Shown: positions 1 to 14,489 of the stretch, piece after piece
Position numbering within the stretch: position 1 is the first letter of the stretch
How the letters are laid out: each line of letters starts with the position of its first letter
Source of the DNA: Rhizodiscina lignyota
Lineage: Eukaryota > Ascomycota > Dothideomycetes > Aulographales > Rhizodiscinaceae
Assembly (NCBI GenBank): GCA_010015805.1
Contig: ML978130.1
Location: 992,001-1,056,000 of the forward strand
DNA length: 64,000 bases
Direction of reading: 5' to 3'
Translations under genes and position numbers: made by a program
The notes under the pieces: generated by a model
Database searches by the model: none
What the model saw: only the letters and a program-made list of their open reading frames with translations
What the model was told of the DNA's origin: nothing

Positions 1-1206
1 GGCCAGACGGCATCCACTTGAGGTACCGCCTGTAGCCACCGCAGGTAACTTTCCGACGCGCACATTGCTGGCAATTTGGCTTCGTTTCATCACACTTTAT
101 CTTTCTTCCTCTGCAAGTAACGCAGCCTGCAGGAATACAATAGTCCGTTAGAGTCCCAATCACTTAGGCATCAAGCAGAAGCATGGACTGACACTTGGGA
201 ACTTGCCATTGCGACTCTTCGGCTGCTTGCGTTTTGAGGACTCGTCGATTTTCCTGATGCCATCGGTCCAATCTTTGGAACGTAGGAGGCGAAGTCGCGG
301 CGCATGTCTGGCATTTGCTGTCGGCGTGATGGACAGAGAAGGTGGGCAGCCAGCATCGACTTCTTCCATGTGACTTAGGCTGCCAGGCAGGAAAATTGAG
401 GACAGGACTGAAGGGAATTGGCTGGTTAACGGCAGGCGAGTTGAAAGTTCACGAGATGCGATCAGATCGGGATATCGGCTGCCCTGATAAGGACCACGTC
501 TAAGGCACGATAAGGAACCCCGGTTTAAAATCCCGCTCACGGAAGCACGAGAGTTAGACAATTGTACTTACTACGATTATGCTTTATCTACAGCTGTCTG
601 GTCTGGCACGAAGTCCACAATTTTCTAGGCAGTTTTGATGATGAAGGAGCCTCGAATTTCTGTCTCTATTCTGTCAAGTGCCTTTTCAAGCAGCACAAAA
701 GAGATTCCAGCATTGACTTTGATGACGCACGAGCCGAACAAGGCATATCAAGGACTTGTTGTGAATAAGCAGGGAATAGCTGTTGAAGAGCAAGTTGAAC
801 AACCCCCAAATCTTGAGGATCTGAATATGAGATGCTGTAAGGACAAGAGTTATGCAGAGCCAATAAGAACCCTTCATTCGTGCGCCAAAGTCTACCCATT
901 TGAGTCTAGCGGGGGCAAACGTCCAGACTCGGATTTTGTGGGTGCAAGTCACAACGCGAACCTATCGCTGTAGACTGCTCTTTTGACGTGCTCTTCCAAT
1001 CATGCTATCGGAATCGTTCACCCAACGTAGAAGTCCGGGGCAAATGGCAGGCTTCGTGCGGCAGCTACGGAGCCCAACAAGCTTGTAAATAATATAAAGG
1101 AGATGAAGTGAAATGAAGAGATCGGTTTAAAGAAACAGCCGTGTCGGTAGCAGAGTACACCATTTATACTTGATTTCTAACAAAACCGCACTCTCGATTC
1201 CCTATC
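1..1206. other. Intergenic, no supported gene
   Basis: Several short open frames exist on both strands but none shows a recognisable domain, a convincing start context or splice structure. A TATA-like TATAAAGG lies at about 1093-1100, roughly 110 bp before the start of the Rieske gene, and is the only regulatory-looking site I can point to. Confidence 0.6.
1093..1100 (+). promoter_or_regulatory. TATA-like box before Rieske gene
   Basis: TATAAAGG about 107 bp upstream of the ATG at 1207, at a plausible distance for a fungal core promoter. Motif match only. Confidence 0.35.
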
Positions 1207-2471
1207 ATGTCTCCTTCAGTTGTTCAACCTTTGCCAATGGAAGGCACTCTGCCCGCTTCTTGGTACACCAGCCCAGATATATACGAGCTTGAGCGTCGCG
1301 CCATCTACTCGAAACATTGGCAGCTCTTAACCCACAAGATCCGAGTTCCAGAGGTGGGCTCATTCGTCCGATATGAAGCTGCTGGCTTCCAGTTCTTCAT
1401 TATCAAGGACCGTAAGGGCGAGGTCAACGCTTTCCATAACGTGTGCAGGCATCGAGCATATCCCGTAATTGAAAAGCCCTCGGGAAAAGCATCGATTATT
1501 GCTTGCAGGTACCATGGTACGATATTACTGCAGCGAAGCGGAGATCGAATATTGACGTGAGTAGGCTGGTCATACGGCTTGTCGGGGAACTTGGCAAAAG
1601 CGCCAGCCTTCAACGACGCCTCTGGATTCGACAAAGGTCAGTACTCTCTGTTCAAGATCCATACTCGTGTCGATAAGCGCGGATTCATTTGGATCAATTT
1701 CGACGCTTCCGAGACGCCGGTCCCCTGGGAAGAGCTGAACGAGAGCGTCGATGTGGAGCCTCGGCTCGATAAGTATGATCTGGAGAATGGCTACAAGTAC
1801 GACCATACGTGGTCGCTAAAAGGAAACTACAACTGGAAGGTGATGCAGATAATTTCAATGAGTGCTATCATTGCAAGACTAGTCATCCCGGCATTGCAGC
1901 AGTCACGGACCTCGACAACTACGCTGTGAAGCCTGCAACTGGCCGAATCGAGCACTACGCGCCGGGAAAAAAGAGAACTGAAGGAAGGACAATTTGGCCA
2001 GTACGGCGACTCAGCTCTTACACTTGTCTTTCCGAATGTCGGCGTGAGCATCAGCAACCCGTACTTCTACATCATGCGAATCATCCCGCCGGGGCCGCGT
2101 AGTGTTGTGCAAGAGTACGAGGTCTTCCGCAACGTAAATATTTCTGACCAGGAATTCGAGGACGCCGATAAGTTCTTCAAGGAGTTCGAGGCCGAGGATA
2201 AGGATCTCTGTAATAATGTGGGCGTCAATTTGGCCAGCAACACCTACGTCCAAGGGCCGCTACACCCCGGCAAGGAAAATGGTGTTCTTCATTTAAAGCA
2301 CTTGTGAAGTCGGAGCTGAAGAAGCACGACGCCGTTGAGAAGGAGACAGGGAGACAATATTGGCCGGCTCGCTGGAACCAAATGCTGGAAGGCTCTGTGG
2401 ACGAGGATGAACTCTTTTGTAATAACATCTGTGGTGCGGGCGGTGAAAACCACTCGGGCTTGGGTTGGTGA
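1207..2471 (+). pseudogene. Rieske 2Fe-2S aromatic-ring/amine oxygenase, frame-disrupted
   Basis: Family: Rieske non-heme iron oxygenase alpha subunit, of the choline monooxygenase/betaine-demethylase-like type, which oxidises quaternary amines or aromatic substrates with electrons from a reductase. Seen: start ATG at 1207; the Rieske cluster ligands as C-R-H (in NVCRHRAY) and C-R-Y-H-G-W, the second pair split by an intron at 1517-1564; the mononuclear iron site in NFNECYHCKTSHP; and a normal C-terminal region ending at TGA 2469-2471. The conserved protein sequence changes frame three times: near 1848 (one base missing before NFNECYHC), near 1968 at an A6 run (one extra base) and near 2291 (one base missing before KALVKSEL). 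The middle two-thirds therefore cannot be read from one frame, and no intron can explain the shifts because conserved residues sit on both sides. Two of the three sites are in or beside homopolymers, so sequencing error is a real alternative to a decayed gene. The adjacent FAD oxidase on the same strand suggests a lost or error-masked amine-catabolism pair. Confidence 0.75.
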
Positions 2472-3160
2472 CAAGTAAATAGATATTGAAGTCGAATGGT
2501 GAAGCTGAATACGTCAAGATAGCTGTGTACAGCAATGAGTGATCGAATGCGAGCGTTAGATTACGTACATTTAATTAGCGTGATTGAAGCTGCTGAGGTG
2601 CTAATGAAGCACTTCAGAAAAGCTTGGATACAGCTATTTCGCTAAGAAAGGGGGTTTGCGGCCGTGCGAGAAGGTGAAGCCGAAGGACTTCGGAAATTGC
2701 AGCGGCGGCGGAGACCTGTGGATTGTGACAAAATCTCCCTTCCAACCTCAACCCCGTTCGGCTCCCACGGCCCTCGCACGAGGTGTTATCGCAAGAGCCG
2801 TGGCTAAGATCCCAATGTTGGCGCCTCCGCCTCGAAGTCATCCTGTCTTCCCGTACATATAGATGGTTCCCAATACTCTATCGTATGTATTCGGACTGGA
2901 GCTGACTGGACAGCCGGAGGCGCGTCGATTTACCCTATCGGGAAGCCAAAATCAGTGCACAAGGGAGAGATTCCCCGGAACTTTTACTCATTGAAACGCA
3001 ATTATATGTTCGAGATGGCGCAGGTAGGACAAATACTTATTGTTCTGGAATCTCTGAGTCGGCATTGGGTGATTTGTTTTGCGATACACTCTCAGTTCTT
3101 CCATTAGATCGCGCCAGCATATCCGTCCGAGCTCACATATTTATTCAAGCTATTCACAAG
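2472..3160. other. Intergenic, promoter of FAD oxidase
   Basis: No coding potential that I can support. It separates the disrupted Rieske gene from the FAD oxidase on the same strand, so it should hold the 3' end of the first and the promoter of the second. No clear TATA box or other motif seen. Confidence 0.5.
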
Positions 3161-4579
3161 ATGTCTGGATCTCCTGAGGGAATTTATGAGCCTGGCATTG
3201 TGGACCCCAAGACGCCTCTGCCAAAGTACACCTCTCCGTACTGGCATATTGCGCCACACAAGCATGCCAACCATCAGTCGCCCTGGCCAAAAGACACCGT
3301 GGATGTTGTAATTATCGGCTCTGGTATCTCGGGCATGAGCCTGGCCCGCACGCTTACGACCAAGAACCCACGCCTGAGCGTCGTGCTTGTTGATGCGAGA
3401 CAGCTCTGTGCTGGAGCTACAGGTCGCAATGGCGGCCACATCAAGACCATGACCTTTGCCATGTGGGAGGAGCGCAAGAGGATATTTGGAATTGAAGAGG
3501 CCATCCGGATCTCGCTTTTCGAAGACAGCCACCTGGAAGCGACGCACGCGGCAATGAAGGAGAATGCCATCGACGCCGATCTGGTCCTGACCGAGGGTAT
3601 TGAGGCATATTACGACCAGGCTGTGTTTGATAGGGCCGTCAAGGCTCTTGAAGACATGCGTGCTCATATCCCCCAGCTGGCCGCAAAGCACAAAGTCTAC
3701 AATAACTCGGCCTCCCTGCAAGAGATGAAACTGTCACCGCGATGCATTGGTGCTATCGGTATTGCGGCCGCATCAGTTTGGCCTTACAAGTGGATTACAG
3801 GAGTCTTAGGCAAGCTTATTGACGCCGGAAAACTTAATGTGCAGACACATACTACGGTGACGGCGATCGAGGATGAAGACTCTGACTTTGCCGTTGTGCA
3901 CACAAATCGCGGCACAATCAATGCCAGGAACGTAATCCACGCCCAAAACGCTTGGGTTGGCCACCTGCTGCCCGAACTGAGACCTTTCGTGTCGCCTGTC
4001 AGAGTTAATGTGGTCCACTATGGCGCCCTCACGAACGATAAGAATGCAAGCGCTTCGAGCAAGTCTCCTCTGGGACTCGACAGCAAATACTCTCTCTGGC
4101 TTCGATATGGTGAGAAGGACTACGACTATGTCATCCAGCGCAAGGACGGAGGCCTTGTTGTTGGGCGTGCCTGCACTGGTCGTAAGACAACCTCCGATGA
4201 CAGCACGACAGATCTGCCGCCAATGCAGCATCTGCGCGGCTTCGCGGAAGAGACCCTTACTACTGCTCCTCCCGGCTGCTCCTCCCATGTCGATCGTACT
4301 TGGTCCGGCATCGTGGCATTCACTCAGGACGGCGTACCATTTGCAGGCCGGCTGCCGTTTCCAGGGCGTAAGCATCAGTGGGTGTGTGGTGCCTTCCATG
4401 CTACCGGCATGATCAAGTCTTTCCGCACTTCGCAGAACGTTGCCGCAATGGTTCTCGGGGAGGAGGTCAGTGAGGATTTCCCGAAATCGATGCTGATAAC
4501 GAAAGAGAGGATCAACGGGCTCAGGCGATCATTGGATGTTGGCGGATACCCAATCCATGTGCAGAAGGCAAAGCTGTGA
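3161..4579 (+). CDS. FAD-dependent amine/amino-acid oxidase (DAO family)
   Basis: Predicted flavoprotein of 472 residues, one exon. It belongs to the DAO fold that oxidises the C-N bond of amines such as sarcosine, glycine or N-methyl amino acids to an imine with transfer of electrons to FAD and O2. Seen: the dinucleotide-binding motif IIGSGISGMSLA at residues about 51-62, followed by the second FAD-contact region with ARQLCAGATGRNGGH, and a typical C-terminal FAD-closing block with WSGIVAFTQDGVPFAGR and a final GAFHATGM. The ATG at 3161 (context CAAGATG) is preferred; an in-frame upstream extension to 3065 adds a non-conserved leader. It follows a disrupted Rieske oxygenase by 690 bp on the same strand. 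Rieske oxygenase plus DAO oxidase is the pairing used for stepwise demethylation of betaine-like compounds, so a linked role is plausible but inferred. The substrate is unknown. Confidence 0.85.
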   Translation: MSGSPEGIYEPGIVDPKTPLPKYTSPYWHIAPHKHANHQSPWPKDTVDVVIIGSGISGMSLARTLTTKNPRLSVVLVDARQLCAGATGRNGGHIKTMTFAMWEERKRIFGIEEAIRISLFEDSHLEATHAAMKENAIDADLVLTEGIEAYYDQAVFDRAVKALEDMRAHIPQLAAKHKVYNNSASLQEMKLSPRCIGAIGIAAASVWPYKWITGVLGKLIDAGKLNVQTHTTVTAIEDEDSDFAVVHTNRGTINARNVIHAQNAWVGHLLPELRPFVSPVRVNVVHYGALTNDKNASASSKSPLGLDSKYSLWLRYGEKDYDYVIQRKDGGLVVGRACTGRKTTSDDSTTDLPPMQHLRGFAEETLTTAPPGCSSHVDRTWSGIVAFTQDGVPFAGRLPFPGRKHQWVCGAFHATGMIKSFRTSQNVAAMVLGEEVSEDFPKSMLITKERINGLRRSLDVGGYPIHVQKAKL

Positions 4580-4779
4580 ATCCTTTACTGTTTCAAACTC
4601 ATCACGGAATGACGTTTCATGGCCAGACAATATGATATAACCCAGCTGCAGGAGGTTGTCCTTAAAAACGATCCTCAACACCTCTTTAAACATTCAATCA
4701 ATGGCGCCAAAGTTTCGTAAAGCTCATAGATCATCCCAATTCGTTGATCCCTTCACAGTTTCTCCTCCTGCAAGGTCCA

Positions 4780-6258
4780 TCACAGTTCTCTGCTTCCCTG
4801 TGCCTCGAAAATTCTTTTGATCAAGTCCTTCCCTACAGCTTCAGCATCATTCGTCTCTTTCCATTCCCCCTTTCCGGCTACGACGTCGCTCAACACGCCA
4901 ACACCCTCCCAATTCGTGCCAGTAACAGCGTGAACGGGCCGCTCTCTCGGCACCGCAACAACCCACCAGCTCTTCCCAAAAATGTCCTCGCAAATAAATC
5001 TCGGGTTGGTAACGGGATTGGCCGCGCCTGCTGTAGCATCATTGCCTTCTCCAATCACTGCTTTACTGCGTTTGAATGCTTGCAGATCGTACGCCATCTC
5101 TTCGCCGCCCGAAATAGTATCCTTGGCCGTAAGTACGAAAAGCGGCTTTGTGCCCCCGAAACATGTGGTACCTGCGGGAAGTTCGGAGACTGGAAGGGTC
5201 GAGAAGGACTTGATAATTTCCCCAGAACGGTCCACCATGTCGAGTATATGTACGGGAGCGTCATCGACGAAGTAGGACAGGACAAATGCCACGGTCCAAG
5301 GGCTTCCTCCTTCATTCCGACGGAGGTCAATAATTAGTGCATCGGTATCTGAGACGGTGCTGAGAATCTTGCCTATAGCGGCGCGAATCTCTTGATATTC
5401 AGGGAAGTCCGGTTCGGTGGGGAGGAAGCCGTTGATCGCGACGGTGACAATGGTCCGGCTCGGAATGGTGTCGTAATCGAGGGAGACGTTGAAGAGGAAG
5501 TTTACGCTGCGGAGATCCTCAAGGAGCTTTCCAGGAGGTGGTTTCTTAGGCTCGCCATCAGGGTCGCCCCGAGGCTCGATGAAGAAAACACCCATGTGCT
5601 TATCGTGTCCGGACGCGTGTAAATCTTCTGTCAGGCGAACGGCGTACTTTTCGCTCTCGGTAAAGTTGTCATAATCGCCGTTGTCGAGGTGGCCTTTCAG
5701 CGCAGAGACCATAGTCTCTACTTTGTCTGGGATGACATATTGATTTCTCAAGACCTCTCCAATTCCATCAATTAGGGCTCCTCGGGTGTATGTTGTTAAT
5801 GGGTGGAGAGCCTTCTCGTACCTAGGTCGCCGTGGATCGTCTTTTGGAATGAATTTGATTGGTGTTGTGATGGGATGAATACCAAACTTCGTGACCGGAT
5901 GGATGTCTTTGGACACATCCACAACCATCGAAGCTCTGGCATATTGAGGACGGAGTTTCTCCTTCATGACCACTACGACGGTGGACGGTTCTGATATAGA
6001 CTCGATGTCTACAACATCAAATCCACCAGTGGCTTTAGCGAGTCTCAGCTCCCGGTTGATATCGTCGACATCATGGCTGGCGGCAGAGTATGGAAATGCT
6101 GGTCCTGTGTGGTATTCAAGCAGTGCTTGTTTGTCGGCGCGATTGAAAACGGTGAGCCACGCTGAGAACTGAATTGATGCAGGGTGATCTGAGGGCAAGG
6201 TTGGGTATGCTGGGCCCATCAGCCCTCCGATTTTTAGGATTGTCTGCCAGAAATTCAT
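4780..6258 (-). CDS. S41-family (tail-specific/IRBP-like) serine peptidase
   Basis: Single-exon protein of 492 residues. S41 peptidases cleave near protein C-termini with a Ser/Lys catalytic pair; this one resembles the stand-alone TSPc domain of interphotoreceptor-retinoid-binding-protein type rather than PDZ-containing Tsp. Seen: the strand IIDLRRNEGGSPW, a block with LTAKDTISGGEEMAYDL in which the serine of SGGE occupies the nucleophile position, then the segment KAVIGEGNDATAGAANP corresponding to the conserved glycine-rich turn, and the C-terminal GTNWEGVGV (family GxxWEGxGV). The start ATG at 6258 has a near-perfect context (GCCACCATGA); a TTG start 12 bases earlier is unlikely. No signal peptide is obvious, so it may act in the cytosol. 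It lies convergent to the FAD oxidase with about 200 bp between stops. The family is common in bacteria and patchy in fungi, so transfer is possible but untested. Confidence 0.8.
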   Translation of the reverse strand: MNFWQTILKIGGLMGPAYPTLPSDHPASIQFSAWLTVFNRADKQALLEYHTGPAFPYSAASHDVDDINRELRLAKATGGFDVVDIESISEPSTVVVVMKEKLRPQYARASMVVDVSKDIHPVTKFGIHPITTPIKFIPKDDPRRPRYEKALHPLTTYTRGALIDGIGEVLRNQYVIPDKVETMVSALKGHLDNGDYDNFTESEKYAVRLTEDLHASGHDKHMGVFFIEPRGDPDGEPKKPPPGKLLEDLRSVNFLFNVSLDYDTIPSRTIVTVAINGFLPTEPDFPEYQEIRAAIGKILSTVSDTDALIIDLRRNEGGSPWTVAFVLSYFVDDAPVHILDMVDRSGEIIKSFSTLPVSELPAGTTCFGGTKPLFVLTAKDTISGGEEMAYDLQAFKRSKAVIGEGNDATAGAANPVTNPRFICEDIFGKSWWVVAVPRERPVHAVTGTNWEGVGVLSDVVAGKGEWKETNDAEAVGKDLIKRIFEAQGSREL

Positions 6259-6882
6259 GGTGGCGAACAATAGATGCTGTGATCTGAAGAGAAAAGGACA
6301 CTCGCGCTACATCAGTCAATTATTTAAAGGTAGGCATACACAAAGGTTAGAGAGCCATCTTGCAACGTATTAGTTCTGATCAGGCAACCAGAAGGAGACT
6401 AAGCGGAGGTGGAGGTGTACCATCGTAAAGAGGGTGGGGTACGACGAAGGGAATGTGATGCCTGCTGCCTGAGCTACTCTTATACGCCCAATGAGTGCAC
6501 AAGGATTCAGCTCAAATCTAATTGGGAAATATCTTGGAAGGTCTTTCGTGTCAAAATCAGAGAATTAGCGCTTGCCAGGGTTGCAGGTACCTAGAAAGAA
6601 AGCAGGTATGCATGTCGTTAACCGGCGGGGCATGAAATCCTTGATTCCTTGTACAATCGTAATTAAGTATTATCATGTAGTCTCATGTACATACAGATCA
6701 AGCAGCCTTATTCAGATCAGGATAAACCAAGTCCTAGACTTCGTCGCCGACAATGTTTCTTAAATATACTCCAGATATCAAAAACGATGCCGAACAATAT
6801 CATACGCTGCCTTTTTAGCTTAGGAAAAGAAGATATCGAATAAAGAGCTGGGACTCTGATCACTCACCATCCGCCACCCATA
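6259..6882. other. Intergenic between two minus-strand genes
   Basis: Holds the promoter of the S41 peptidase and the 3' flank of the GTPase-patatin gene. I see no gene or clear motif in it. Confidence 0.5.
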
Positions 6883-9800
6883 TTAGTAGGCCCGTTCCGA
6901 AAGCTCGATGGCTCTCTGGAGCTCTATCAAGTTCGTCCCGTTCGCCGTATATCGGTTGGGCGTTTGTAAACTCTTCGCTATAGCTCGAGCTAATTCTTCC
7001 TCATCCTCATCAATTTCCAGTAAGCTCTCTCGTCCGCTATCTTCATAAGGACTTGATGGTGCCGGGGAGCTCGCACTTCCAGTGACGGATGCGGTAGAGC
7101 TCACATCTTCGTTCGATCCTAAAAAGCGCAAAGAGGGCATGATTCGCAGGGCGTTCCGAAACCGAGTGGCCGTTAAACCACCAGTACGCTCTGATTGAGC
7201 GGTTTCCCAATCTGAGAAGACAGATGATGATGCTCTCTCCACTCTAATCTCTGGTGTCTCTACTGGTAGTTCTACGGTCTCTGCATCTTCCCCCAAAGGA
7301 AATCCTATGACAATCGAGGCAGTATCCCCGCAATCATCTTCATTTTCCGGGACGTCGAAGAGCGATATCGGTCTATCTTCTGCTACAAGTGCCACTTCTC
7401 TCTCCCTACCACTTCTGGTGGGCCGAGGTCCTGGACGGAGCATACCAACTTTCGGGCTTGCGCTGCTTTCTTTGGCTAAAGAATCCATGAAATCAGTGCA
7501 GATTCGCCCAGTTTCTAACCATCATATGACTCACAATCTTGCAAAACATCTAACACCAAGTTTCGGGGAAAGCCAGAGATCTGAATTAGGTCTACTCCCC
7601 GCCATTGGTCCCAGAGCGCTAGAGCAATTGCGATTTCGCCATGTTTTTCAGAGACTTTGACTCTGATTGATCCCATGTCAAAGGACGAAGTCGTGCACAT
7701 TCCTTCAATCACGATAGGGTCAATTCGATGCACCATCTCCCTTTTATGGCCAGACCGATGCAGTTCCCTCACGCTGAAATGCAGCTGGAAAGCTTCACCT
7801 GCAGCAAGCTGATGATCCTTAAGGAATTGACCCAGTTGACGAAGCTCTTCAGAACCAGTTGCAAATTTGCAGTTGATTTTGCCTACTCCGCGTCAGCATT
7901 GCTCGGCGGGGGGCACAAAACAGGCCTTACCCCAGCAGTGATAGCCATCGTCTTCTTTGTGCACACTAAGTCTTTCAAAGTAGAATGAAGATGCCACAAG
8001 CTGATGGGCTACCCTAGATATCTTTTTCAGGTATCGTTCCTCCTCTTGAAGTTTCACTCGGACTGTTGCCTGAAGGAGATCCAACTGGCGCTTGTCATCC
8101 AAGTTTGGTGGCCGAAAGCCCAACTTTGGATTTATGCGCTGATACCGTCGAGAATCCGGAGAGTTCTTAGATGGCAGGACATCCTTCTTGAAATCTTCCC
8201 ATGCCTGGTCGGAATTTAGAATGTTGTCAACGCGATTGATCATCACGCTCAAGCTTTGACCGAGCTCTGTGCCCTTGATCCACTCAGCAAGTCGGAACTT
8301 CCTCTCTCGAGGACTCGGAGTAACTATGATGTCAGATATGATCTCAGCGCGCCGCCAGCGCCTTTCGTACGGTTCAGCTGTCCCGGTTGTTTCTTCTCCG
8401 TTATGGCCAGTGCCGATTGAAAGAAGAATATCGGGCTGGTATTCCGCGACATCCAACCACAAAAGCTTGCTCTCATGATATGCAACACGGACTGGATTGT
8501 TGTGATATAGTGCTCCATCCAAGTAGCCTTCTTGTGTCTCCTTTTTCACAAAGGGCTTGAAATAGCCGGGAGCAGCCGAAGCAGCACGAAGCCTGAAGTG
8601 AAAACTTAGCGAAGATGCAATCTGAGTCAAGACACAGTAATCGTACACTTCCCATCGCTTTAGCTCGTTGCGAGGATTGTCGGGACGAATCAATTTGTAG
8701 CTTACTACTACGGCATTAGCACAGTATGACACAAGCGAGCATATCAACTACACTTGAACTAACCTTGTCGCTCGACCTCTCTATTATAGTTAGTGAATAT
8801 GACCGGACTCTGCCCTGTATCGGTTGTGCTGGTTATCGCGACTCGTCTGTGGTAGCTCCTTGGGTCATCGTGTTCTCCGCCAAACATGTACTCATCGGGG
8901 AGAACCTCTTTCAGACACTCTTCGAAAGGTCGGGTTCTATACTTTCGCCCAAGTCTCATGCCAGGCAGGCGTAACGTGAAGGCTTTGTCGCACAGTCTTG
9001 TGAAGTGCCTGATGCATGTTTCGACGGGCCAGTTTTCAACCCCGAGACCCATTGCCAGAATACCTCCAGTGCTGTACTATAGCGTAAGTATAAGATAGAA
9101 GATAGTATCTGGAATGTAACATTATTACCTGGTTCCGACAATGAGATCGAAGAATGACTGGATCGGAATGCGCCCGCCAAGATAGAGTTCCAATGCTCGT
9201 AAAACCTCGAGCTCTACGATGCCCCGAACTCCACCTCTGCAAAAGTCAGACAGAGTTGAACTATACAGCTGTTCTCTAGAGTACCAAATACGCACCCATC
9301 AAGAGAAAGGATACGAATACCAGATAGGTCTGGTTTTAATTTAATCTCCCATGGCTCAGTGAACCAGAGACCGTAGCCCTCCAGGGTATGACTGTGCAAA
9401 GGACATCTGTGCAATATGATGCTGTTCTTGTCCTTTGATTCACTTGATCTTTCCTGCTCGTCCAGTTTCTTCTCGTCCAGCTCGCTGTATGTCCTCGCAC
9501 ATGGTGTGCACAGCACATGACCACAGTCAAGAGGGTGTTCTGGCAGGCCTCGCAAGCAACAAAAACAAGCAGTGTGACTGCAAAAGCGCCTTGAGCTTTG
9601 ATAACGTCGATAGAATTCTTGAACATTGCTGCGATGCCTCTCTGAGACTGAATCCTTCTCGGAGACTGTTGGGTTGAGACCCATGTCTTCGACAGTCATC
9701 TTTTGAAATTTGATGACGTTCAGCATAATGGACCTACGCCAGATTGGTCGATACTGCTCAAAGGAGAAAGTTGAAATGTAGTCTCCTCCACTGATGATTT

Positions 9801-11699
9801 TTCCCTTTTCGTTTTGATGTCCTTTTTTGTGACCTTCCAGTACGTTGATGCAGTGCCCTAGTCGATTGCTGAATTCACAGGGCCAGAAACGCCTGCAGAA
9901 ATCCTTTAATGCATCATCGCAGAATGACACGTAGTTTCTTTCGAATAGTTCTTTCGCGGGGCCTATCGACACTAAAAGTCAGTTCCATTTGGGGAGTCCA
10001 AGGAGACCACCTGCCTTTCAATCCATGCCGTACTAAATCAAGGACGATACATGAAGCGACCATGACGCTTAAGCTTTCGAATATTGTCGACACCGGTGGT
10101 CCCGTTGAGACACTCAGGATAGCAACGGCCAGTTTCAAGATGTTGCCTCCGAAATCCCTGGGTATCGGGCTGTTCCGAAAGGCCACCTCCATGAAATTGA
10201 ATGGCATGTCCAGATTCTGCGCAAAGTGGTCAAAGCCGGCCTGTAAATACTGATGCAGTTCGTCTGAGTTGGCCAGCATACGTGATTTCCGCTTTGTATC
10301 ATAAGATTTTGCGCAGGCGATGTTAATTTCCTCGTAAGGCTTAGAAACTTGTTGTTCAACGAGCATGTAACGGTCTCTTGGAATCCGTACAACGCGAATT
10401 GAGGAATAGTAGCAACCAATGAGATCTGACATCGAATGAACTGGTTTGCCGTGGCTACTCCAATATTCTACGTATTTTCGATACTTTTCGTCCTGCCATA
10501 TACTCGACGAGACTCTATCCATGAGGTCTTGAGTCGAGACATCGACGTCCCACTGGCTTGCATCGATTCTTGGGTCGCTTGCGTTTAAAGCAATAATAGC
10601 ATGAGGCAATACCGGCTGGTTTGTTGATTTCTCGACGACTGCATCTGCCCACTCGATCAACTTGCTCAATACAGATGATTGGAAAACTCTATTATATGGT
10701 CAGCGTTCTCTATCCAACAGCATGCAGATTATTGGCGACAGACTTGGGATTCTGAAGAACAAATACAACAACATCAGAAAATGTATAAAGGAGTCTTGGA
10801 TAGAGTTCCGTGACTCCATACTCTCGCTTTTGCTTCTCGGGAGAGTCAGCCCACGTTATATCTCTCTGCACATTTCGCGAAAGTCTGAGGCGCTTTTTCA
10901 GTCTGCCACTGTCGTGAGCTCGGGAATCTCCTCCAGAATTCCTGGATTGGGCTCCGATCGGGAGTGTTTCTCCCCCGTCGAGTCCCTCGCAGTCCGCATA
11001 CAACAACGGGAACTGGCCGAAATATGTAGGAGGGTCGGCGTAAAGATGCACATCTCCTGAGGTTGGAACGATATCATTTTTCATCGTCCCAACAACTGGA
11101 GTTGGAAAGAGATGTCTCTCATCGAAACCGTTCGTCTTCCTCTCGATTAACATTTTGACCAAAGTGCTCTTTCCAGCTCCAGTCTGGCCGATGAATGAGA
11201 CAAGTCGTGGAAATCTGACCGCGTTCTCCTCAAATGCACTATTGGCGAAAAGCGTCGCATACCTTCCATAATCTTGGAAGATTGGATGATTGGCCGAGTC
11301 TCGAGCGATCCCAAACCACGTGGTCTCTTCATCTTCGAGATGTAACCTTTCCTGAGTCACCTCGTCCGAGGGTGGATTGAACGTCGCTTTCAAGCGATCG
11401 ACGACCTCGGGCAACGCTTGTTCATGGGGAATTCCTTTTGGTTGCTTTCCTGGCCTGTGTAAAACTTGCGTTTTCCAGCACTGCCCACAAAAATAAGACT
11501 CGCACTCTCCACAAAGGAAGATCGGAGGCTCAGCGATATCGCAAACAGCACAGCTGGGAGCCGAATGACTCTGATCTGCAATTGAAACGGCAGAGGCAGC
11601 ACCTGGCTCGCCATAGTCGTACAATGATGATGAGTCGTATTGAGATTTTTGCATCTCACGCACACCTGCCTCGAAAGCGTCAAGTAAAGATTCGTCCAT
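6883..11699 (-). CDS. Zinc finger - P-loop GTPase - RING - patatin - UIM protein
   Basis: Predicted protein of 1481 residues from eight exons: 11699-10744, 10688-10015, 9962-9296, 9236-9129, 9071-8764, 8707-7931, 7882-7520 and 7475-6883; the lengths sum to an exact 1482 codons. Order of domains: a B-box-like finger at residues 50-81 (CAVCD, CGEC, CGQCW); a large-GTPase-like P-loop GQTGAGKST at 171-179 and switch DCEGLDGG at 237-243; a helical region with LNQ-like EKSTNQPVLPHAIIALN; a RING-like finger at about 671-733 (CSHTACFCCL, DCGHVLCTPC); a patatin lipase starting near 760 with oxyanion loop DGGGVRG, nucleophile elbow GTSTGG near 803 and the DGA aspartate near 968; a C2-sized tail; and two ubiquitin-interacting motifs (EEELARAIAKSL and IELQRAIELSE) at the C-terminus. 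Both residues of the Ser/Asp dyad are present, so the lipase should be active. The second intron needs a GC donor (9963-10014). I know no characterised protein with this order. A nucleotide-gated, ubiquitin-linked phospholipase, by analogy with patatin immune effectors, is inference. Confidence 0.8.
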
Positions 11700-12640
11700 C
11701 TCAGCGCCGTCTTCAGCGCTTCAGGTGGCCTTGCGTGCTTCACTTGGAAAGTAAAGGATCGAGGCACCCGCAAGCCTTATAGGAGCTGAAAGCCGCATGG
11801 CCTAGCCCGGCCCTTGGAGTTTTGCATTGACAAGGCTGAAGGAGCCTCGCTTGCCGTGTCCACGGCATGGTCAGGTGGAGAGATTACCCCTGGACAATGC
11901 TCTTCTTCGATACTTACTTTGAAGCACAGGTTTATTTTCTTCGAGAAAGATTCTATAGCGGCCGACATCATGTTCAAATATCTTTGCGCTGGAGTAACTG
12001 GTTGAAGGTTGGCCGCTGGCCGAGAAGGGACCGAGCTCCGAGATAACGCTCGCGAACGCCATGTGTCCCTATCACGGCTCTCCATCACTCGTTTGAGCGA
12101 TTCTGCCAAGCACAGAACGCTCTGCAAGCGCGCCAAATGGCCCGTCCGCAGGCGGTGAGGTCGTGCTCAGCATTCCCGAGACATGTGGCGGGAGGTTGAG
12201 CAGCTAAACTTGACGTCCGCTATCTCGAGTTGAGCTCCGCCCGCTCTTCCGCCGCGTCTCAACAACCTCCCCTTCTCTCTGAATACGCTGTATTTCTGAG
12301 CACAGCTTACCATCCATCCCACGTTCTCACAACTACTGTGCGATCAACAGGAGCCGCGGTGACTCACATGAAAAATCCATTTGGAATGTGCATTTTCCGA
12401 AGTCCGTCAGCCATTTGACCCACACCCGTATCTGTCCGAAGATGCATTGAACATAGCTCAGCTTCATGTTGATAGTCCCTGATCGATGATGATACACCTC
12501 CTCACTCTCCGCATCTTGGTCAAGTAGTTCTCGTCCCTTATCCGATCTTTTGCTTCTTGTCTACTTTATCGTCGGCTGCTTTCCTGTTTGGTGTTTCTGG
12601 TTAATCTCCACTCCTTTTCTTTCTTTACATATTGTAATTC
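11700..12640. other. Divergent promoter region
   Basis: Lies between the start of the GTPase-patatin gene (minus) and NDH-2 (plus), so both promoters must be here. The last 100 bases before 12641 are pyrimidine-rich (runs such as CTTTTCTTTCTTT), a common feature just upstream of fungal start sites. No gene supported. Confidence 0.5.
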
Positions 12641-14489
12641 ATGATGAATTGTTATAGAAGAATTTATTCCACGCTGCTGCGGAAGCAATTGAGCCCCGGC
12701 GCGCATTATAATGCGCTGAAGGTCGTCTCGGGCATACAGCAGATTGCTATCCGAACGGCATCATCAAGCTCACCACAGCCATCACAATTTCCCAGCTCAC
12801 ATTCGACTCCGCTATGGAACGTCACACAAATTCAAGGCGACCAGCGTAGAACAATCGTCACCGTAGCCGATCTCGATAGAACTCAAGACGGACGAGAGCG
12901 AGTCGTGATCCTTGGTTCAGGTGGGTTGTATCCAAGAAAGGTGCCAGACGCGTAGCTGACAATACGTAGGTTGGGCAGGGTATCCACTCGCACGCGAACT
13001 TGACCACAAGAAGTTCCAGGTCGTAATCGTCAGTCCTCGATCCTACTTTGTCTTCACACCGCTCCTCGCCTCAACTTCAGTCGGCACCCTCGAGTTTCGT
13101 ACTGCTCTCGAACCCATCCGAAATCGACGAAACAAAGCACGCTATATACAAGGTTGGGCTGACGACGTCGATCTATTCAACAAGACTATCACTATTGAAG
13201 AGGCTGTCGCAGACCCAAATACAAGTCTTGCGCCAACGGGATGCAGAAATGAAGGCAAAGATGAAGTTCAAATGGAGTATGAGAAGGTCTCGAAGAGCCG
13301 GAGAGGGCAAATGTTTGACTTGCATTATGACAAGCTGATCATCGGCGTCGGAGCATACAGCCAAACTTTCCGGACCCCGGGTGTGCGAGAACATGCGCAT
13401 TTCCTCAAAGATGTTGGCGATGCGAGGAAGATCCGCAAAAGGCTTCTGGAATGCTTCGAAACTGCCGCGCTGCCAACGACGCCAGACTCCATCCGCAAGC
13501 AGATATTGCACTTCGCAATAGTCGGTGGTGGACCCACAGGTGTCGAGTTCTCCGCCGAATTGTACGACCTAATCCACGAAGATCTCGTAAAGATCTATCC
13601 CGAGCTCCTTCCGCATGCAAAGATTTCTCTCTACGACGTATCTCCCAAGGTACTCACCATGTTCGACGACAAGCTCGCCAAATACGCCATGGACACCTTC
13701 GCACGTGGTGGCATTGACATCCGCACCTCTAAGCAGATCTCCTCCCTCTCACCAGGCCTTCCTTACACTGGTGGCCACGCCGCGGGTCGAGTCGGCCTGA
13801 CTCTCAACGTTAAAGGAGAAGATCCGCAAGGCGTGGGGATGTGCATCTGGTCGACTGGTCTCATGGCGAACCCTTTCATTGCCAAAGCTCTCTCCACGAT
13901 ACGCCGCTTCCCACCCAAGGAGGTCATTTTCAAGGATCATTATCCGCAGGCCGAAGAGGCGCAGTGGAACATTGCACGTGACGAGAAGACCGGACGGATC
14001 GTGACGAACGATCGTCTGCGTGTGGTTATTGATGCACCTCTACCCAAAGACGTCGAGCCGCTGGTTACGTCGGTGGATCCGACGAAGATGTCTGCGCGTT
14101 TGAGAGACGTCTTTGCACTGGGTGATTGTGCGTTCATTCAGCATACGAGCTACCCTGCTACCGCACAAGTTGCGAATCAGAAAGCTGCGTGGCTTGCGAA
14201 GCGACTAAATGCTGGCGATATGGACCGTCTTGGCGTAGACAAGTTCACGTACAAGAGCTTGGGTATAATGGCGTATCTGGGCAATGCGAAGGCTATTGTT
14301 GGCGGTCTGGGTGGACTGAAGAGGAAGAGCGCCGATGGCGATCGGGAGCTCAACCTGAGTGGACGCATGGCGTGGTTGGTGTGGCGTGGGGCGTATCTTG
14401 CCAGGAGTATCAGTTGGAGGAACCGAGTGCTTATTCCGGTTTACTGGTGCTTGAACTGGGCTTTTGGAAGGGACATTTCGAGATTCTGA
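12641..14489 (+). CDS. Alternative (type II) NADH:ubiquinone oxidoreductase
   Basis: Two exons, 12641-12920 and 12970-14489, giving 599 residues. NDH-2 enzymes are single-subunit, rotenone-insensitive flavoproteins on the inner mitochondrial membrane that pass electrons from NADH or NADPH to ubiquinone without pumping protons. Seen: a basic, serine-rich N-terminus (MMNCYRRIYSTLLRKQ) fit for mitochondrial import; FAD motif VILGSGWAGYPLA, split by the 49-bp intron; conserved RSYFVFTPLLAS; nucleotide motif FAIVGGGPTGVEFSAEL; the quinone/FAD block FALGDCAFIQ; and the usual membrane-anchoring end WRNRVLIPVYWCLNWAFGRD. No EF-hand insert is evident. Internal (NDI) or external (NDE) orientation cannot be told. 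Neighbours are unrelated; its start is divergent from the GTPase-patatin gene. Confidence 0.93.

Follow-up and report, generated by a model that had tools for sequence, protein, structure and literature searches.

A gene on the minus strand of a 64,000-nucleotide stretch of the Rhizodiscina lignyota genome (contig ML978130.1, positions 992,001 to 1,056,000; hereafter the window) raises the question of what kind of protein would join a zinc finger, a nucleotide-binding domain, a RING-like finger and a patatin lipase. A preliminary description had listed these segments together with two UIMs, in an order that it did not recognise. All of the named segments, read from position 11699 to 6883, proved to be real, and the list was incomplete, since it missed a conserved C2H2-like site (C572, C581, H588 and H592) and a C-terminal domain (about amino acids 1140-1257). 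With these included, we show that the core order is zinc finger, GBP/atlastin-fold GTPase, helical region, C2H2-like site, RING, patatin and C-terminal domain.

The evidence for this order comes from a search with the spliced protein, in which 656 of 7466 candidates reached E<=1e-3; of these 656 we examined the best 120. One of them, P0001, is the deposited model of the window gene itself, leaving 119 homologues of 874-1651 amino acids; as they are the top-scoring matches to the full protein, the presence of segments in them is partly selected for. With the segments of the window protein as BLAST queries against these homologues (E<=0.01), we detected the GTPase, the helical part and the patatin in 119/119, the RING in 117/119, the C-terminal domain in 110/119, and the zinc finger and the C2H2-like site in 104/119 each, while the UIM tail was found in 8/119 and the linker in 0/119. 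In 108 rows BLAST picked up the GTPase, RING, patatin and C-terminal domain together, and in 108/108 their order was identical, in agreement with the domain order of the preliminary description and answering its proposal to look for the same order in other genomes. The architecture is unnamed, as had been suspected, but with 656 homologues it is not rare. The homologues occur in many ascomycete genera, and their named sources, which we take to be Pezizomycotina, include a single exception filed under Quercus suber, perhaps a contamination. Two family entries, P0234 and P0274, are from Triangularia verruculosa, which is related to Podospora. The direct homologues are fungal entries titled 'FabD/lysophospholipase-like protein', many of which list PF28431 and PF01734. 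Most labels name just the lipase, or nothing; one Septoria entry already comes close, being labelled 'putative Zinc finger, RING-type, patatin-like phospholipase domain-containing protein'. Two sets, A1 (77) and A2 (48), were hand-picked from the listed proteins. A 2136-amino acid entry from Zalerion maritima (P0257) lists PF00909, presumably an ammonium transporter, alongside the family domains and is perhaps a gene-model fusion.

The GTPase domain occupies amino acids 96-430 (10355..11414, minus strand, as are all gene features below unless stated), spans intron 1, and carries the P-loop GQTGAGKST at amino acids 171-179 (11163..11189). Its key residues are kept almost throughout the family, K177 in 117/119 homologues, D236 in 119/119 and N354 in 118/119. 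A search with the GTPase piece gave only shorter proteins resembling fragments or partial gene models, and these supplied P0121 and its relatives for folding. In fold searches, AlphaFold2 models of homologues matched the G-domain fold of GBP/atlastin (GB1/RHD3-type) GTPases. Judged by these models, the module is a member of the GBP/atlastin fold class, unlike NB-ARC or NACHT; the preliminary description had rightly called a P-loop GTPase but had not recognised its class. The P-loop of GBPs and atlastins carries an arginine (GxxRxGKS), and guanine is recognised by an RD motif. This arginine was present neither in the window protein nor at that position in the 119 homologues, and the RD motif is absent, the window reading N354-A-S-D357 with the fourth position D in 63/119 and E in 48/119. 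The Pfam GBP model PF02263 was unlisted for the window protein at E<=1, and in the R. lignyota genome it found the Sey1 locus only. A recount gave the same result for Sey1, for the missing P-loop arginine and for the dyad counts of the patatin. At the same threshold no NB-ARC, NACHT or TPR was listed in the window protein; we rejected NB-ARC/NACHT, ABC and RsgA identities for the nucleotide module, the ABC and RsgA matches in Pfam covering mainly the P-loop and lying below cut-off. A helical region follows (amino acids 431-560, 9913..10354, spanning intron 2), with helices seen in the model of P0047.

The preliminary description had proposed profile searches of each segment, and in these the patatin alone exceeded its Pfam cut-off, while the UIM, zinc finger and P-loop fell below theirs and the RING was unlisted. 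Because Pfam support is below cut-off or unlisted, the zinc finger, P-loop, RING and UIM assignments rest on conservation. The N-terminal zinc finger, of B-box/ZZ-like type, spans amino acids 50-92 (C50 to H92; 11424..11552), and its six cysteines are kept in 98-107/119 homologues, H81 in 110/119 and H92 in 118/119. Weak matches point the same way, in Pfam to CEBP_ZZ (0.0015, window protein) and B-box (0.00042, P0002) and among profiles to MID1 (0.0087) and TIF1-beta (0.016). The C2H2-like putative zinc site (9817..9879) keeps its ligands in 116-117/119. The RING-like finger, of C3HC3H order, covers amino acids 676-733 (9394..9567) and reads C676-x2-C679-x10-C690-x-H692-x2-C695-x2-C698...C730-P-L-H733, that is, eight ligands in cross-brace order, of which seven are kept in 116-118/119 homologues and H733 in 111/119. 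Weak profile matches were to TRIM34 (0.0038) and RNF141 (0.005). The Pfam RING model, unlisted for the window protein at E<=1, appeared below threshold in some homologues, for example P0003 and P0008.

The patatin phospholipase domain extends over amino acids 762-1110 (8034..9309), spans introns 3-6, and was identified by PF01734 (8.6e-21; 75.4 bits against a cut-off of 27.7) and by a fold match of a homologue model. Its motifs are LDGGGVRG (764-771), GTSTGG with the nucleophile S802, and DGA with D949. The Ser802 codon AGC is split by intron 4, with its first two bases at 9129..9130 and its third at 9071; the Asp949 codon GAT lies at 8517..8519. By sequence, the catalytic dyad of the window patatin is intact, as the preliminary description had it. 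Across the family, in counts that hang on one MAFFT alignment, Ser802 is kept in 92/119, Asp949 in 109/119 and both in 87/119 homologues, the nucleophile being Gly in 25/119. Four members have Ser with a substituted Asp (P0084, P0094, P0107 and P0118), P0108 has Asn at both dyad positions, and P0061 and P0070 have gaps; by alignment, 30/119 homologues look lipase-dead. A tree of 120 rows (the window model plus 119), made with FastTree only and with the catalytic columns excluded, requires six Ser/Gly changes, forced by its starred branches; 30/117 of its inner branches are open, and it carries a long-branch warning. All of the Gly members (25/25) retain the P-loop Lys and the G3 Asp, and also the RING ligands, of which three were checked. 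Intact and substituted members can occur under one species name, as in Annulohypoxylon stygium and A. moriforme (intact P0046 and P0050; substituted P0118 and P0107). By alignment, the active site of the lipase was altered in several lineages that retained both the GTPase and the finger.

Downstream lies the conserved C-terminal domain (amino acids 1140-1257, 7545..7946, spanning intron 7), which has ISGFPR near its end and showed mixed strands and helices in a homologue model. What follows ISGFPR varies. In the window protein, UIM-like motif 1 (amino acids 1417-1434, 6955..7008) scored 19.2 bits with Pfam UIM (0.001), below the cut-off of 21, and motif 2 (amino acids 1440-1457, 6886..6939) was assigned by eye, in a tail that aligns with those of P0015 and P0022. 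Sub-threshold UIM or UIM_2 matches were found in four of 13 homologues scanned at E<=0.1 (P0013, P0014, P0022 and P0058). Hence the two UIMs first reported are present as UIM-like motifs, but they are weak, confined to a minority of members and outside the defining core. Narrow regular-expression counts (zinc finger 65/120, UIM 20/120) were superseded by the later residue and BLAST counts. Among five members picked for unusual-looking precomputed domains, P0040, P0056, P0062 and P0077 carry at the C-terminus SPRY, above cut-off, with ankyrin repeats that fall short of the cut-off in P0056 and P0077, whereas an SH3 takes the place of the UIM-like tail in P0068; in many other members the tail has no UIM, SPRY-ankyrin or SH3, or is nearly missing. 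This variation fits exchangeable targeting modules. 'Cake' propeller matches (5.7e-5) were discarded as a 26-residue stretch matching repeatedly by chance, its single-domain E-values starting at about 700.

Searches of the organism's own 33.4-Mb assembly (29 contigs) revealed at least two full-architecture copies and one copy with a decayed P-loop. The second full-architecture copy, L012 (P0241, 1212 amino acids; G000:C15:533500-540500, about 896-5082, plus strand), shares 24-33% identity with the window protein across the stretches that align; it keeps the P-loop and GTSTGG, has Tyr in place of the third RING ligand Cys, and no UIM tail was seen in it. The third copy, L013 (G000:C2:2360500-2367500, 1724-4937, plus strand), has lost the P-loop spacing (GKQSKSS) and the G3 glycine (DCEAN) and keeps the RING and a GSSAG patatin motif; its sequence makes it a likely pseudo-GTPase. 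Each of the GTPase, RING and lipase modules therefore seems to decay on its own, a pattern that speaks for a protein with several functions. Four other patatin matches in the genome (L014-L017) show similarity confined to the patatin part.

We propose, giving it somewhat less than an even chance, that this single gene encodes a self-assembling, nucleotide-controlled effector, and we infer its use of GTP, its assembly, its activities as lipase and ligase and its setting in defence. GBPs and atlastins dimerise or polymerise with nucleotide, and by analogy nucleotide binding would drive dimerisation or polymerisation of the GTPase module. Filament formation activates the prokaryotic patatins CapV and CapE, whose filaments are named in PDB titles; in the same manner, assembly might gather patatin domains, together with the RING, at a membrane and turn phospholipid cleavage on. 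The RING could attach ubiquitin to the assembly or to its target, and the variable tail, UIM-like here and SPRY-ankyrin or SH3 in some others, may direct the effector to its site, the UIM-like version presumably bringing it to a ubiquitinated target. Most likely the protein would act in defence of the fungus or in recognition of non-self, where it would damage membranes locally or lead to cell death. A more far-reaching proposal, which we regard as tentative, is a separate class of fungal innate-immune effectors in which a polymerising GBP/atlastin-like GTPase, not a STAND ATPase, activates both ubiquitin ligase and phospholipase; the C-terminal sensors would be exchangeable, and lipase-dead members, having evolved repeatedly, would serve as regulators or decoys of active ones.

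The same modules could instead do housekeeping work in the quality control of organelles or lipids, where a GTPase resembling atlastin would concentrate lipase and ubiquitin ligase on damaged membranes or lipid droplets. Atlastin and Sey1 match the GTPase as well as GBPs do, iPLA2-beta and plant patatin equal CapV as fold matches, and the spread over many ascomycete genera would suit such a role; however, member-specific tails and repeated active-site change are unusual for housekeeping enzymes, and R. lignyota holds its two or more full-architecture copies plus the P-loop-decayed one, so that we consider this explanation unlikely. The replacement of Ser by Gly in 25/119 homologues, through six changes on the tree and with the P-loop Lys, G3 Asp and checked RING ligands all kept, raises another possibility, in which the protein is primarily a GTPase-controlled ubiquitin ligase whose patatin fold is a scaffold or lipid binder, with lipolysis secondary. 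A Pro after the seventh RING ligand in 118/119 agrees with this, but the window gene and 92/119 homologues keep the Ser, L013 presents the opposite case with a decayed P-loop and a retained RING and GSSAG, and in L012 the third RING ligand is replaced by Tyr; we judge this possibility rather improbable. That two adjacent genes, or a prediction artefact, had been joined by the reader is suggested by the shorter deposited P0001 (1088 amino acids) but is very improbable, and we rejected it, since P0001 itself links GTPase, RING and patatin, and 119/119 top homologues hold GTPase and patatin with the order kept in 108/108, which, these being predicted proteins selected by similarity, is strong support though not transcript evidence. 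In this respect, the single gene of the preliminary description stands.

Its eight-exon structure does not. Our homologue-guided splice model of the whole gene (6883..11699) has nine exons and encodes 1457 amino acids; exons 1-3 lie at 11699-10744, 10688-10015 and 9962-9296, exons 4-6 at 9236-9129, 9071-8764 and 8704-8647, and exons 7-9 at 8592-7931, 7882-7535 and 7475-6883. The difference is intron 6 (8593..8646), a 54-base, in-frame, stop-free intron inside the patatin that had been read through. When retained, introns 4 and 7 contain stops and intron 6 none. Exact codon closure, formerly taken as support, is no proof of the eight-exon structure, whose frame does close, at 1479 or 1480 amino acids, yet keeps 18 residues missing from P0001 and P0002. 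Intron 2 (9963..10014), 52 bases long, is most plausibly of GC-AG type, and its removal gives LKGPAKELFE, matching the PAKELFE-like residues kept by relatives. Both this intron and intron 6 were chosen because of the residues that relatives retain. The deposited intron 2 junction of P0001 drops these residues and was rejected, as was an acceptor after 9972, which yields KVSIGPAK where relatives read KGPA or KGSA. P0001 matches the encoded protein at 99% over 74% of its length; it is without 183 bases of exon 1 (11663-11481), where most of the zinc finger lies, and it runs into intron 7 and so ends ahead of the C-terminal domain. These missing segments are present in homologues (zinc finger 104/119, C-terminal domain 110/119, by BLAST), and the shape of P0001 may reflect a second isoform or a mis-prediction. 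The 183-base stretch is itself an in-frame GT...AG, a possible alternative splicing event.

The neighbouring genes are an S41 peptidase-like gene at 4780-6306 (minus strand) and, on the opposite strand, an NADH dehydrogenase-like gene with Pyr_redox_2 and NDH2_C at 12638-14489 (plus strand).

Patatin genes have been tied to fungal incompatibility, six of nine being up in the available part of one report (PMC3689799), while in the available part of another, of nine non-NLR patatin genes five were up in each of two bacterial challenges and just three in incompatibility (PMC4835503). The accessible sections of a 2025 survey of Sordariales NLRs describe patatin NLRs that are nearly all NB-ARC, and neither 'GTPase' nor 'RING' occurs in them (PMC12258605). 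Likewise, in the accessible text of two fungal immunity reviews, 'GTPase' and 'RING' are not in PMC12881547 and 'RING' is not in PMC10197012. GBPs act in animal and plant immunity, according to the portion at hand of a review in which the words 'fungi' and 'yeast' do not occur (PMC9005921). The ToxhAT gene was set aside, its product as given in the available excerpt being patatin-TPR, another architecture (PMC6737239). Zymoseptoria Zt109795, described in the accessible part of PMC8745584 as raised in a mutant, bears the same label as family entries and is a possible member. In searches of open-access papers, a scope outside which most subscription papers and bioRxiv preprints fall, we recognised none describing the zinc finger-GTPase-RING-patatin architecture. 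Present in hundreds of proteins, most of them labelled as fungal, the fusion of a GBP/atlastin-fold GTPase with a patatin and a RING is a candidate fungal counterpart of GBPs, makes it testable whether a dynamin-superfamily switch substitutes for the STAND switch ahead of a patatin effector, and raises the question of why the lipase site changes repeatedly while switch and finger persist.

Among known systems, we know of no patatin in the GBP, atlastin and RNF112 families, and the protein described here differs from them in lacking the P-loop arginine and the RD motif; the Pfam GBP model does not detect it. It shares the patatin fold with CapV/CapE of CBASS, CapV being the best profile match among solved structures; according to PDB titles, however, cyclic nucleotides bind those small proteins of prokaryotes, whereas in the present protein control would fall to the GTPase fused to the patatin. 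With the TRIM ubiquitin ligases it has in common a B-box-like finger and a TRIM-like RING in one protein, both as weak matches, but here the finger comes first and the RING lies about 600 residues downstream with the GTPase between. The comparison with nucleotide-gated patatins that the preliminary description had drawn was a sensible one, as PLP-1 of Neurospora crassa, a fungal NLR, likewise fuses a nucleotide-binding module to a patatin and, as far as the available text reports, requires both the lipase and the nucleotide motif for cell death (PMC12881547); PLP-1 is also treated in PMC10197012. In PLP-1, however, the order is patatin, NB-ARC, TPR, whereas here a GBP/atlastin-fold GTPase stands ahead of the RING and the patatin.
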